Shown here in pieces: positions 2,517 to 4,777 of a stretch of 7,496 nucleotides of DNA; positions within the stretch are counted from its first letter, which is position 1; every line of letters starts with the position of its first letter. This DNA comes from an uncultured Dyadobacter sp. (GTDB taxonomy: Bacteria > Bacteroidota > Bacteroidia > Cytophagales > Spirosomataceae). The translations under genes and the position numbers were made by a program. Location of the stretch: NCBI GenBank assembly GCA_946481035.1, contig CAMLNK010000175.1, forward strand, positions 1 through 7,496. The letters run 5' to 3'. The notes under the pieces are model-generated. The model ran no database searches and was not told the DNA's origin. It saw only the letters and a program-made list of their open reading frames with translations.

Positions 2517-2915
2517 CTAGATTGTCCAATTTTCGAGCCTAATCTCATTGATTTTTTGAAGGTGCCTGGTGTTGTTGGTAACCATTGTTAGTTGATGTCT
2601 GACGGCGGTAACGCCAATAAATAGATCAAAGTCGTCGAGCGGTGTGCCTATTCTTTGTAGCCGAGCCTTCTCTTTGGCAAACAGGTCGATGGAATCAAAA
2701 ATGGGTAATATCTGCACACCGCTCAGAAAGTCATGTAAGGTTCTGAGATTCTGTTCAGGCCGGTCACTCTTCTCAACGCCAAATTTTAGTTCCGCGAGGG
2801 TGATCTCGGAAATATAGCATTGCTCAGGTGTAACTTTCTCGAAACGGCTTTGAGGGTCAAACTTGCCTTTCATGAAATAAATGGCAATGTCGGTATCGAT
2901 GAGGTATTCCTTCAA
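2517..2915 (-). CDS. vapC: VapC-type PIN-domain ribonuclease toxin
   Basis: A 132-residue PIN-domain protein, the normal VapC length. The family pattern is LIDTDIAIYF at the N-terminus with Asp7, ITLAELKFG with Glu42, LDDFDLFIG with Asp97, and TMVTNNTRHL near 110-119. These give the acidic residues that hold magnesium in the active site. VapC toxins cut tRNA or other RNA and are silenced by the cognate antitoxin. The reading frame begins with TTG (2915-2913), because the family N-terminus starts exactly there and no better codon lies upstream. That TTG overlaps the antitoxin's TGA stop in the four bases TTGA. Translation is therefore probably coupled to the antitoxin. The RNA target cannot be told from the sequence. 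Confidence 0.88.
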   Translation of the reverse strand: MKEYLIDTDIAIYFMKGKFDPQSRFEKVTPEQCYISEITLAELKFGVEKSDRPEQNLRTLHDFLSGVQILPIFDSIDLFAKEKARLQRIGTPLDDFDLFIGVTAVRHQLTMVTNNTRHLQKINEIRLENWTI

Positions 2916-3157
2916 AGTGGCTCTATTTGGCGGGTTGAAACTCGGCTGCCGCGAATGTCAGCGATAATCTCCTCGGCAGATTTGTCAGAAACGAAGGCAC
3001 CAAAGGCTTTGCGGAAGGTAGTTTTCTTCTTTTGGGTAGACATTTCCTTGGTCTCACTTAGCCGGGCTATGAGATCCATCCTGTCATCAGGACTCAGATT
3101 GCCCAAAATGGATGCATATGCATCGACAATGGTAGTATTTCTTTTTTCTGGTCTCAT
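2912..3157 (-). CDS. Antitoxin partner of the VapC toxin
   Basis: An 81-residue protein directly upstream of, and overlapping by four bases, the PIN toxin. It reads MRPEKRNTTIVDAYASILG at the start and ends DIRGSRVSTRQIEPL. The N-terminal half is helical (DAYASILGNLSPDDRMDLIARL), the middle is basic (TQKKKTTFRKAFG), and the C-terminal segment should wrap the toxin, as in many VapB-like antitoxins. I recognise the type from Bacteroidota VapC partners, but it is not one of the classic AbrB, Phd or RHH antitoxins by eye. The ATG at 3157 is preferred to codons open further upstream, because those run into the structured element at 3175-3250. Antitoxin-first order fits autoregulated type II pairs. 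Confidence 0.8.
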   Translation of the reverse strand: MRPEKRNTTIVDAYASILGNLSPDDRMDLIARLSETKEMSTQKKKTTFRKAFGAFVSDKSAEEIIADIRGSRVSTRQIEPL

Positions 3158-3174
3158 ATCACTTAAAATTACAA

Positions 3175-3250
3175 AAAAATGCCGCATGTACACTAAGAGG
3201 GATACCCCTCGACGGCAGGAGGCCGACCTTCATGCACCGCAGGCATTTTT
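3175..3250 (-). ncRNA. Structured repeat element, copy 1 (three-way-junction candidate)
   Basis: Read on the minus strand, the outer helix AAAAATGCC (3250-3242) pairs with GGCATTTTT (3183-3175). It continues inward with GC/GC and TGCA/TGTA. Inside are helix P2, CGGC-CTCCT-GCCG, and helix P3, GAGGG-GTAT-CCCTC. The joining bases TGAAGG and TTAG are shared with copy 2. The element ends in T7 (3179-3173), so on the minus strand it is also a terminator shape; the plus strand ends in T5. It lies in the leader between a promoter-like sequence (3264-3296) and the antitoxin ATG at 3157. It could be an attenuating leader structure, a short RNA of its own, or a mobile palindromic repeat. I do not recognise the family. 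Confidence 0.55.
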
Positions 3251-3263
3251 GAAGTCTGGAATG

Positions 3264-3296
3264 CAAAGATAAATCGCCCGGAAATGCCAAGTCAAA
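3264..3296 (-). promoter_or_regulatory. Bacteroidota-type promoter upstream of copy 1 and the antitoxin-vapC pair
   Basis: On the minus strand TTTG (3296-3293) is followed after 21 bases by TATCTTTG (3271-3264), an exact TAnnTTTG match. Transcription would begin near 3258, pass through the structured element and reach the antitoxin start after about 100 bases. I see no equally good box between the element and the antitoxin. Confidence 0.55.
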
Positions 3297-3390
3297 TTGC
3301 TTGATAAGCGAAACGGACCGGTTATTCATTTCTATTTCTTTTAAGCGTTTAAGGCTTTGTGGTTAAGAATAAGCAGTTTAAGTTTACTCC

Positions 3391-3552
3391 GTCCAATCCA
3401 AGAGTAGAGTTACTGCCGAACATTCCGTTAACAGCCATGAACTGGTTGTGAATGGTATTTCTATCAATGAACGGTGCCGTAACTACCGTAATGGATTACA
3501 TTCCATTGCTCTACTCTTGGGCTGGACAACGGCAAGTGCGGCACCGTTTTTT
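3391..3552 (+). repeat. Interlocking inverted repeats, attenuator-like leader
   Basis: Pair A: 3391-3409 with 3509-3527, 17 of 19 positions complementary, including 12 in a row (CCAAGAGTAGAG). Pair B: AACGGTGCCG (3470-3479) with its exact complement at 3539-3548, running straight into T6 (3547-3552). The order A, B, A', B' means the two helices interlock: they are alternatives or a pseudoknot. A smaller hairpin, AATGGA-N6-TCCATT, lies at 3490-3507. Pair B with its T tract resembles an intrinsic terminator, and pair A an antiterminator, for the gene starting at 3581. A mobile-element remnant is another explanation. I see nothing definable in 3300-3390. Confidence 0.4.
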
Positions 3553-3580
3553 GCTGCATTCCATCATCAACCTGACAGCT

Positions 3581-3832
3581 ATGCACACCGATTTTCATCA
3601 ACAGCGCCGTGATCACGCGGCATTCAAGTTGCTCAAAGATTTCCTGAATGAGGATGTGGATCTTGTGGAATTGGAGCATGTTTTGAATGATATGCTCATT
3701 CACTACCTCAGGCCCGCGCATGAATGGAACATCTCGCGCGAGCATGCGCTGTACGCGATTGATAATAGTGAGGTTTTGATGCGGTTGTTGAGGAAGATGC
3801 GGGAGTTTGGGAGGCAGGAGGAGATGATTTGA
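3581..3832 (+). CDS. Small helical protein of unknown function
   Basis: I do not recognise this 83-residue protein. From MHTDFHQQRRDHAAFKLL onward it reads as a soluble, charged, mostly helical protein with no signal peptide, cysteine or membrane segment. It has two amphipathic stretches, FKLLKDFLNEDVDLVELEHVLNDML and a C-terminal SEVLMRLLRKMREFG. The same frame is open up to an ATG at 3452, which would give 126 residues. I prefer the ATG at 3581 because the earlier stretch overlaps the interlocking inverted repeats and its residues look less protein-like; this choice is uncertain. It precedes the DUF3800 gene on the same strand by 31 bases, so the two may be cotranscribed. Whether they work together is unknown. 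Confidence 0.6.
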   Translation: MHTDFHQQRRDHAAFKLLKDFLNEDVDLVELEHVLNDMLIHYLRPAHEWNISREHALYAIDNSEVLMRLLRKMREFGRQEEMI

Positions 3833-3863
3833 TTACCAAACGGATACACTTAAACCTGGGTAT

Positions 3864-4694
3864 ATGCTAGTAATGTCAGGCAGCACACAACCTCCCTTCA
3901 AGCAACATCGTTTTCTCGATGAAGCTGGTGACACAGCTTTTTATGGAAAAGGCAAGTCGCCTATTGTCGGGCAACAGGGCGTTTCGAAGTGTTTCATATT
4001 AGGAATGTTGCGAATCAACGAGCCGCTAGAAGATGTGAGGATAAAGATTTTGGCATTACAGGCATCTATCGAGCAAGATCCTTATTTTCAAGGTATTTGC
4101 AGCATCCAGCGACGGAAAGAAAAAAATGGGTTTCATCTCCACGCAAACGATGATCTCCCAGAAGTTCGCAGAATGGTGTATGAGTTGATCAGATCAATAA
4201 ATTGTAGTTTTGAAGCCGTCGTTGCGCGAAAGATTTATGGTATTTATGAAAGAAAGCACAATGGGAATGCGGCGGAATTCTATGCGGATCTACTTTCTCA
4301 TCTATTAAAAAATAAATTGAATAAATATGATCGACTGGTTTTGAATATCGCCGGGAGATCCAACTGTACAACACACTCCAATTTAAAAAGAGGCCTTGTG
4401 AAATCGGTAGAGCGCTCAACATTTCGAAATCCAGATCAGCCTAATGATTGTGATGTCGTTTTCAACGTGCAAACCCCGACATCAGAACCCATCCTCAATA
4501 TAGTAGACTATTTCTGTTGGGCTATTCAACGTGTATTCGAGCGGGGAGAAACGAGATTCTACGATTTTATTAGTGGTAAGATCAGCCAGGTCATCGATAT
4601 TTATGATTTCGAAAATTTCCGACAACCGAAAGTTAAATCAGGTGCGCACTATGGTAAGCGACGAAAGCTAACAAGCGAAAACCTGATACAATAA
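3864..4694 (+). CDS. DUF3800 domain-containing protein
   Basis: A 276-residue protein with the DUF3800 layout: an N-terminal FLDEAGDTAF (Asp19, Glu20, Asp23), a central FHLHANDD (90-97), and a C-terminal EPILNIVDYFCWAIQRVFE with Asp215. Conserved acidic residues at both ends of the domain suggest a metal-dependent nuclease-like active site, but the family's activity is not established to my knowledge. DUF3800 genes are frequent in accessory and mobile regions. This gene is visibly AT-richer than the protease and hydrolase genes nearby, which suggests horizontal transfer. Met4 (3873) is an alternative start. No signal peptide or membrane segment is visible. The stop codon is followed within five bases by copy 2 of the structured repeat, so this gene sits between the two copies. 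Confidence 0.85.
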   Translation: MLVMSGSTQPPFKQHRFLDEAGDTAFYGKGKSPIVGQQGVSKCFILGMLRINEPLEDVRIKILALQASIEQDPYFQGICSIQRRKEKNGFHLHANDDLPEVRRMVYELIRSINCSFEAVVARKIYGIYERKHNGNAAEFYADLLSHLLKNKLNKYDRLVLNIAGRSNCTTHSNLKRGLVKSVERSTFRNPDQPNDCDVVFNVQTPTSEPILNIVDYFCWAIQRVFERGETRFYDFISGKISQVIDIYDFENFRQPKVKSGAHYGKRRKLTSENLIQ

Positions 4695-4764
4695 AAAAAG
4701 CCCGTAGGTGCACTAAGAGGGATACCCCTCCACGACTCGTGGTCGACCTTCATGCATAACAGGC
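4693..4764 (-). ncRNA. Structured repeat element, copy 2 (three-way-junction candidate)
   Basis: On the minus strand the outer helix GCCTGT (4764-4759) pairs with ACGGGC (4705-4700), then TGCA pairs with TGCA. Inside are P2, CGAC-CACGA-GTCG, and P3, GAGGG-GTAT-CCCTC, then T7 (4699-4693). Compared with copy 1, 20 bases (4711-4730) and 13 bases (4744-4756) are identical. The differences concentrate in P2 and the outer helix, where pairing is kept. A TACCTTTG box (4777-4770) ends five bases before the first helix, so a transcript could begin at the helix itself. It may be a small RNA, or the strong terminator of the GH30 gene upstream on this strand; both readings fit. Confidence 0.55.
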
Positions 4765-4769
4765 TGATT

Positions 4770-4777
4770 CAAAGGTA
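4770..4777 (-). promoter_or_regulatory. TAnnTTTG box in front of structured copy 2
   Basis: The minus strand reads TACCTTTG at 4777-4770, an exact match to the Bacteroidota -7 form, five bases before the outer helix of copy 2. About 20 bases upstream there is only TTTT (4801-4798) instead of TTG, so the -33 part is weak. Confidence 0.4.

Follow-up and report, generated by a model that had tools for sequence, protein, structure and literature searches.

A 7,496-nt stretch of DNA from an uncultured Dyadobacter sp. (contig CAMLNK010000175.1; hereafter the window, numbered from its first letter) carries two copies of an RNA element that is selected for a three-way junction, and this RNA accompanies one group of DUF3800 proteins. 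The second copy (RNA A) adjoins a DUF3800 gene, while the first (RNA B), a diverged relative of copy A, fronts a vapBC-like operon. Because relatives keep the RNA tail-to-tail beside the DUF3800 gene, these sequence comparisons suggest that RNA and protein probably form a small functional pair, in which the RNA most likely binds DUF3800, a presumed RNase-H-fold nuclease, and probably restrains it.

The two copies form a 72-nt repeat in the same orientation (3173-3244 and 4693-4764, 81% identity, spacing 1520), which confirms that the repeat reported in the initial annotation of this DNA is real. Both are read as RNA on the minus strand (3244-3173 for B, 4764-4693 for A), each with T7 at its end. 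The parts described for them could all be located on this strand: the helix P2 (CGGC/GCCG against CGAC/GTCG), the hairpin P3 (GAGGG-GTAT-CCCTC), the joiners TGAAGG and TTAG, and, counted by eye, six differences within the 13 nt separating identical blocks. A pattern built of the conserved parts has two matches in the window, whereas none of 200 shuffles gave one. The minus-strand box said to precede each copy was found in the form TAnnTTTG, as TACCTTTG at 4770-4777, 5 nt upstream of RNA A, and as TATCTTTG at 3264-3271, 19 nt upstream of RNA B; we take this to be a putative Bacteroidetes-type -7 promoter box. Folded singly, the copies showed a moderate gain in stability over shuffles (z -2.1 and -2.0, with 7 and 8 of 200 shuffles equally stable). 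Two helices said to be shared needed qualification. The P2 sequence is present in both copies, but the single-sequence minimum-energy fold of copy A takes CCACG/CGTGG instead; we nevertheless regard P2 as common to both, since the comparison of relatives supports it. Likewise, copy B has lost two of the six outer pairs when held in the common register, and a one-base shift restores them.

Comparison across relatives shows that the structure is under selection, as had been proposed. In an alignment of 34 elements (30 distinct) fitted to the structure, 97.9% of cells pair and 16 of 20 pairs have changed on both sides; not one of the five measures taken was reached in any of 500 shuffles. Since that alignment was guided by the structure, unlike a plain MAFFT alignment of 26 elements, it matters that RNAalifold found the same three-way junction unaided in the latter, with 14 of 21 pairs doubly changed. 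P3 is replaced wholesale between relatives, for example from GAAGG/CCTTC to TCTTG/CAAGA, and single-copy minimum-energy folding gave the three-way junction for 26 of the 34 RNAs. An alternative fold, in which the GAAGG joiner pairs with the 3' arm of P3, has minimum energy in some copies; we consider it unsupported because three loci (L038, L039, L077) alter P3 without a matching change in the joiner. The element thereby shows the conserved secondary structure with covariation that characterises DUF3800-associated RNAs.

The RNA is found where one group of DUF3800 genes is found. A first pattern scan, with one genome per species, gave seven matches, three of them in Dyadobacter; the other four (L001, L002, L005, L007) were dropped, as by eye they show no resemblance outside the pattern. 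Among 48 Dyadobacter genomes, the element adjoins DUF3800 in seven (G001, G003, G010, G013, G021, G036, G040), one of which, G001, has both copies as in the window. B-type elements stand alone in G002, G032 and G042, and a decayed one in G006; none of these four genomes has a PF12686 match. A first covariance model, trained on the window's two elements and 11 from the genus, recovered unseen elements (L036-L042) at E 1e-11 or better. The models R1 and R2, whose training sets included both window copies, score RNA A at 98.3 and 90.9 bits and RNA B at 87.6 and 82.7 bits.

Searching 222 genomes of the family with the window's DUF3800 protein gave 24 genomes with a match. In 14 of these the match has E <1e-50 (47-85% identity), and the RNA is present in every one. 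Seven of the other ten are weaker full matches (29-39% identity) accompanied by a different RNA, type II, and three are short (G022, G163, G203). The covariance-model search of relatives that had been suggested with the initial annotation recovered the RNA in 18 of the 222 genomes, namely these 14 and G002, G006, G032 and G042, with at most two matches per genome under strict filters. In all 16 loci measured, the RNA is convergent to DUF3800, at positions from a 28-nt overlap to a 6-nt gap relative to the stop codon. Beyond the family, 10 of 390 genomes of an order sample matched DUF3800, the one new genome, G225, having the RNA; 3 of 395 of a class sample matched, with two new loci, of which L060 shows a type II motif by eye and L061 ends at the contig end; and 16 of 395 of a phylum sample matched, with the RNA in 13 of the 15 new ones (24 to 93 bits). 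Copy A thus stands beside DUF3800 as its relatives do in 14/14 family genomes (E <1e-50) and 13/15 phylum genomes. Of 23 loci with other DUF3800 proteins, none matched the RNA model at E up to 1.

The protein beside copy A, which the initial annotation overlooked as a partner while describing the repeats correctly, is a 276-aa DUF3800 protein (3864-4694, plus strand; PF12686, 22.7 bits against a cut-off of 21) with an RNase-H-like fold and an invariant DEAGD motif. Copy A is convergent with this gene, the two sharing 2 nt at the stop codon. The predicted structure (pLDDT, a per-residue confidence score, of 92) has the fold of the RNase H-like superfamily, and RNase HII ranks first in the fold comparison. 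For an RNase HII, a full catalytic set in matching places would be expected. An alignment of 48 DUF3800 sequences shows D19 and E20 invariant and N161 nearly so. A published DUF3800 model notes a catalytic rearrangement (PMC10910872). Searches of plasmid and phage collections with the window protein gave no match. Two viral contigs encode DUF3800 relatives, one with a weak RNA match: on IMGVR_UViG_3300005286_000039 (L164), the DUF3800 protein is 30% identical to that of the window, and a convergent RNA-model match (16.1 bits, E 0.007) keeps a CGGCTCCAAGCCG hairpin.

Further comparisons also link RNA and protein. Protein and RNA distances are correlated over 25 loci (Mantel r 0.77, with 0 of 9999 permutations as high); from the set of 34, the rows of five B-type elements were omitted, as were four loci that are partial or broken. 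On a tree of 45 DUF3800 proteins lacking L145, with RNA-type labels assigned partly by eye, RNA type takes three changes, the minimum possible, against 18.5 in shuffles. The two genes are present or absent together in one site comparison, where G013 has ~1.0 kb containing the RNA gene and DUF3800 and G009, with flanks ~90% alike, has 16 bp. Similar pairs were found (G013 and G036 against G008, G040 against G025 and G004, G010 against G023), with 14 to ~100 bp on the empty side; the comparisons probably represent one event.

We therefore favour, at roughly even chances for the reading as a whole, a model in which copy A is a dedicated DUF3800 partner RNA that binds and restrains the protein, and copy B is a diverged leader copy. 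Copy A would be a stand-alone small RNA of ~70-80 nt, transcribed from its own promoter-like box and ended at its T-run, serving the DUF3800 protein encoded tail-to-tail with it. That the RNA binds this RNase-H-fold protein is suggested by the pairing of RNA and DUF3800 gene across genomes. That binding would keep DUF3800 inactive is suggested by the RNA occurring without PF12686 (G002, G032, G042 and, decayed, G006), while this DUF3800 group never occurs without the RNA in the 14 family genomes. The pair would then behave like an RNA antitoxin with its protein toxin, or like a module of abortive defence. Copy B lies in what is presumably the 5' leader of the vapBC-like operon and may form a leader that includes a terminator.

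Several observations weigh against this model. The protein-free RNAs are all B-type with neighbours in common, so these cases may be one history rather than four, and the genomes may be incomplete; the RNA could equally activate or guide DUF3800. Some co-divergence is expected between any two linked genes. The fold match of the protein is moderate (TM-score, a measure of structural similarity, 0.38-0.47), and the window DUF3800 barely clears the Pfam cut-off. On the protein tree, type I proteins do not form one clade: type II is placed between them, forks are left open and several branches are long. In the phylum sample, G1183 carries type II, G1078 (a partial DUF3800 match) shows no RNA, and the weakest of the 13 RNAs has only 24 bits. 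As for the RNA itself, 8 of 34 take another fold by minimum energy, a full TAnnTTTG box ending within 20 nt of the element is present in 15 of 34 only, and one P2 pair and two P3 pairs are lost in the B copy of G001.

The genes around copy B bear on how that copy is to be read. The start codon of a VapB-like antitoxin candidate (2912-3157, minus strand) follows the T-run of RNA B by 15 nt; the candidate is named by its place before vapC alone, has no Pfam or NCBIfam match, and has homologues in L019, L020 and L025. The gene behind it encodes a VapC-like PIN-domain toxin candidate (2517-2915, minus strand; PF01850, E 2.7e-12), which matched NCBIfam VapC models below their cut-offs. B-type copies stand ~13-16 nt (by eye) before the vapB-like start codon in the window and in G001, G032 and G042, where the same placement recurs. 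In G006 (L069), the decayed B-type RNA and a promoter box precede an XRE-type gene with a weak spr1629 antitoxin match, below cut-off; a similar leader therefore precedes a different operon there. The T-run of copy B could serve as an attenuator. Divergent from RNA B lies a gene for a 126-aa protein (3452-3832, plus strand) with no Pfam or NCBIfam match, whose homologues adjoin RNA B in G001 (L025), G002 (L004/L021), G032 (L020) and G042 (L019). In G002 (L004), it is still divergent from RNA B, although the 8-kb locus yielded no vapC homologue. We also observed a 19-nt inverted repeat, 89% complementary, with one arm in the gap that follows RNA B (3391-3409) and the other inside the 126-aa open reading frame (3509-3527).

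Other explanations account for parts of these data. The RNA might be an activating cofactor or guide with which DUF3800 recognises or cuts nucleic acid in the manner of small RNA-guided nucleases, an unlikely but not negligible alternative: the RNase-H-like fold, the close pairing of protein and RNA across genomes, and the presence of DUF3800 in some Cas12a2 loci (PMC10910872) and some VI-F and V-A2 loci (PMC12669027) would all suit it. However, no free variable guide-like segment is apparent, much of the variation being compensated in helices and most loops being short, and three genomes that lack a PF12686 match retain B-type RNAs, possibly with another role. The convergent position at the stop codon could instead mean that the RNA regulates the DUF3800 gene, as an antisense RNA or a transcription roadblock, and does not bind the protein. 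We find this quite improbable, as the overlap is at most 28 nt and absent in 3 of 16 loci, yet a branched structure with compensatory changes is kept, and B-type copies occur in genomes that have no PF12686 match.

Slightly less credible again is that both copies are leaders or attenuators of adjacent genes and not free RNAs. Copy B fits this, given its distance from the vapB-like start in the four genomes above and its decayed counterpart before the XRE-type gene, whereas copy A has no same-strand downstream gene at hand, and in each of the 16 loci measured the RNA runs into DUF3800 on the other strand. Two copies in one window might also suggest a REP-like repeat or a transposon end, dispersed in the genome and near DUF3800 by accident. 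Such repeats have many copies; as none of the 222 genomes has more than two matches under strict filters, and as the element keeps its position next to a single gene family in both the family and the phylum sample, we regard this as scarcely tenable.

Different RNAs accompany other DUF3800 proteins. A second group, whose measured members share 29-39% identity with the window protein, is accompanied in the 3' flank of DUF3800 by another convergent RNA (type II) that has a GTTGCCAGTATTGGCACG-like hairpin (L043-L049, L053, L054, L082); of nine that were folded, at least seven give a three-way junction as judged by eye, and Rfam gave no match. A third group (L008, L009, L139, L148, L155) has a conserved convergent stretch in the same flank, with a TGGGATTGGGG-like start and with CGGTCGGCAAAA followed by a hairpin, again without an Rfam match. 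L145 has a GC-rich stretch with a terminal T-run, convergent to DUF3800 and by eye unlike the other types. Domains in neighbouring genes (46 of 115 neighbours and two window genes, a by-eye pick of non-housekeeping genes) included restriction enzymes, a TIR domain, HerA and PIN domains; we did not use them as evidence because the choice of genes was biased.

Taken further, DUF3800 proteins could be a large class of RNA-held nuclease modules, each protein group with one convergent structured RNA, and in Dyadobacter a diverged copy could have been taken into a vapBC-like leader, wiring the RNA module to a toxin-antitoxin system; we consider this extension rather doubtful. That one window holds both copies hints that the RNA-based module and the protein toxin-antitoxin operon may be connected. 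A ~275-residue protein and a ~72-nt RNA make a small, direct test case for DUF3800 RNAs, available in cultured Dyadobacter species, including strains with the matching empty site. DUF3800 is also reported from CRISPR loci (PMC10910872, PMC12669027).

With respect to known RNAs, the initial annotation's statement that no known family fits agrees with Rfam 15 for the window, copy A and the relatives scanned. The window gave no match at E up to 5; when the surroundings of copy A were scanned at E up to 10, a single snoRNA match at chance level lay outside the element. In the relatives (sets of 7, 18 and 14, a statement covering those loci), the element was unmatched, other matches being at chance level and away from it, with one tRNA above cut-off in L037; 18 loci of other DUF3800 groups were covered too. 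On this basis, a tRNA, riboswitch, ribozyme or small RNA listed in Rfam is rejected for the window and the loci scanned. DUF3800-associated RNA motifs were reportedly described by Weinberg et al. in 2017. Judged by the Rfam models, the window RNA is a new member of this kind: DUF3800-I (RF02969) and DUF3800-IX (RF02968) are likewise structured bacterial RNAs named for their link with DUF3800, but their models match neither the window element nor the relatives scanned. In the literature searched for DUF3800, no paper evidently tests a DUF3800 toxin or describes this RNA.

In type III toxin-antitoxin systems such as ToxIN, a repeat RNA lies upstream of the toxin in one operon. The proposed module resembles these in that an RNA would restrain a nuclease by direct binding, but here the RNA is single and convergent and the protein belongs to another family. 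The same family appears in some Cas12a2 loci, with a suggested role in interference or in crRNA handling (PMC10910872), and in some VI-F and V-A2 loci (PMC12669027), and is read there as having an RNase-H fold (PMC10910872, PMC12669027). In the window, by contrast, DUF3800 stands with one small RNA, in neighbourhoods that were not searched for cas genes. AbiF/RCd22 differs in its protein from the DUF3800 pair, whose toxicity is hypothetical: AbiF is an Abi_2/AbiD/F protein reported to have links to Cas13 ancestors. In layout, however, it is alike, pairing one RNA gene with one gene for a protein that the RNA is proposed to neutralise, and it provides a precedent for an RNA restraining its protein.
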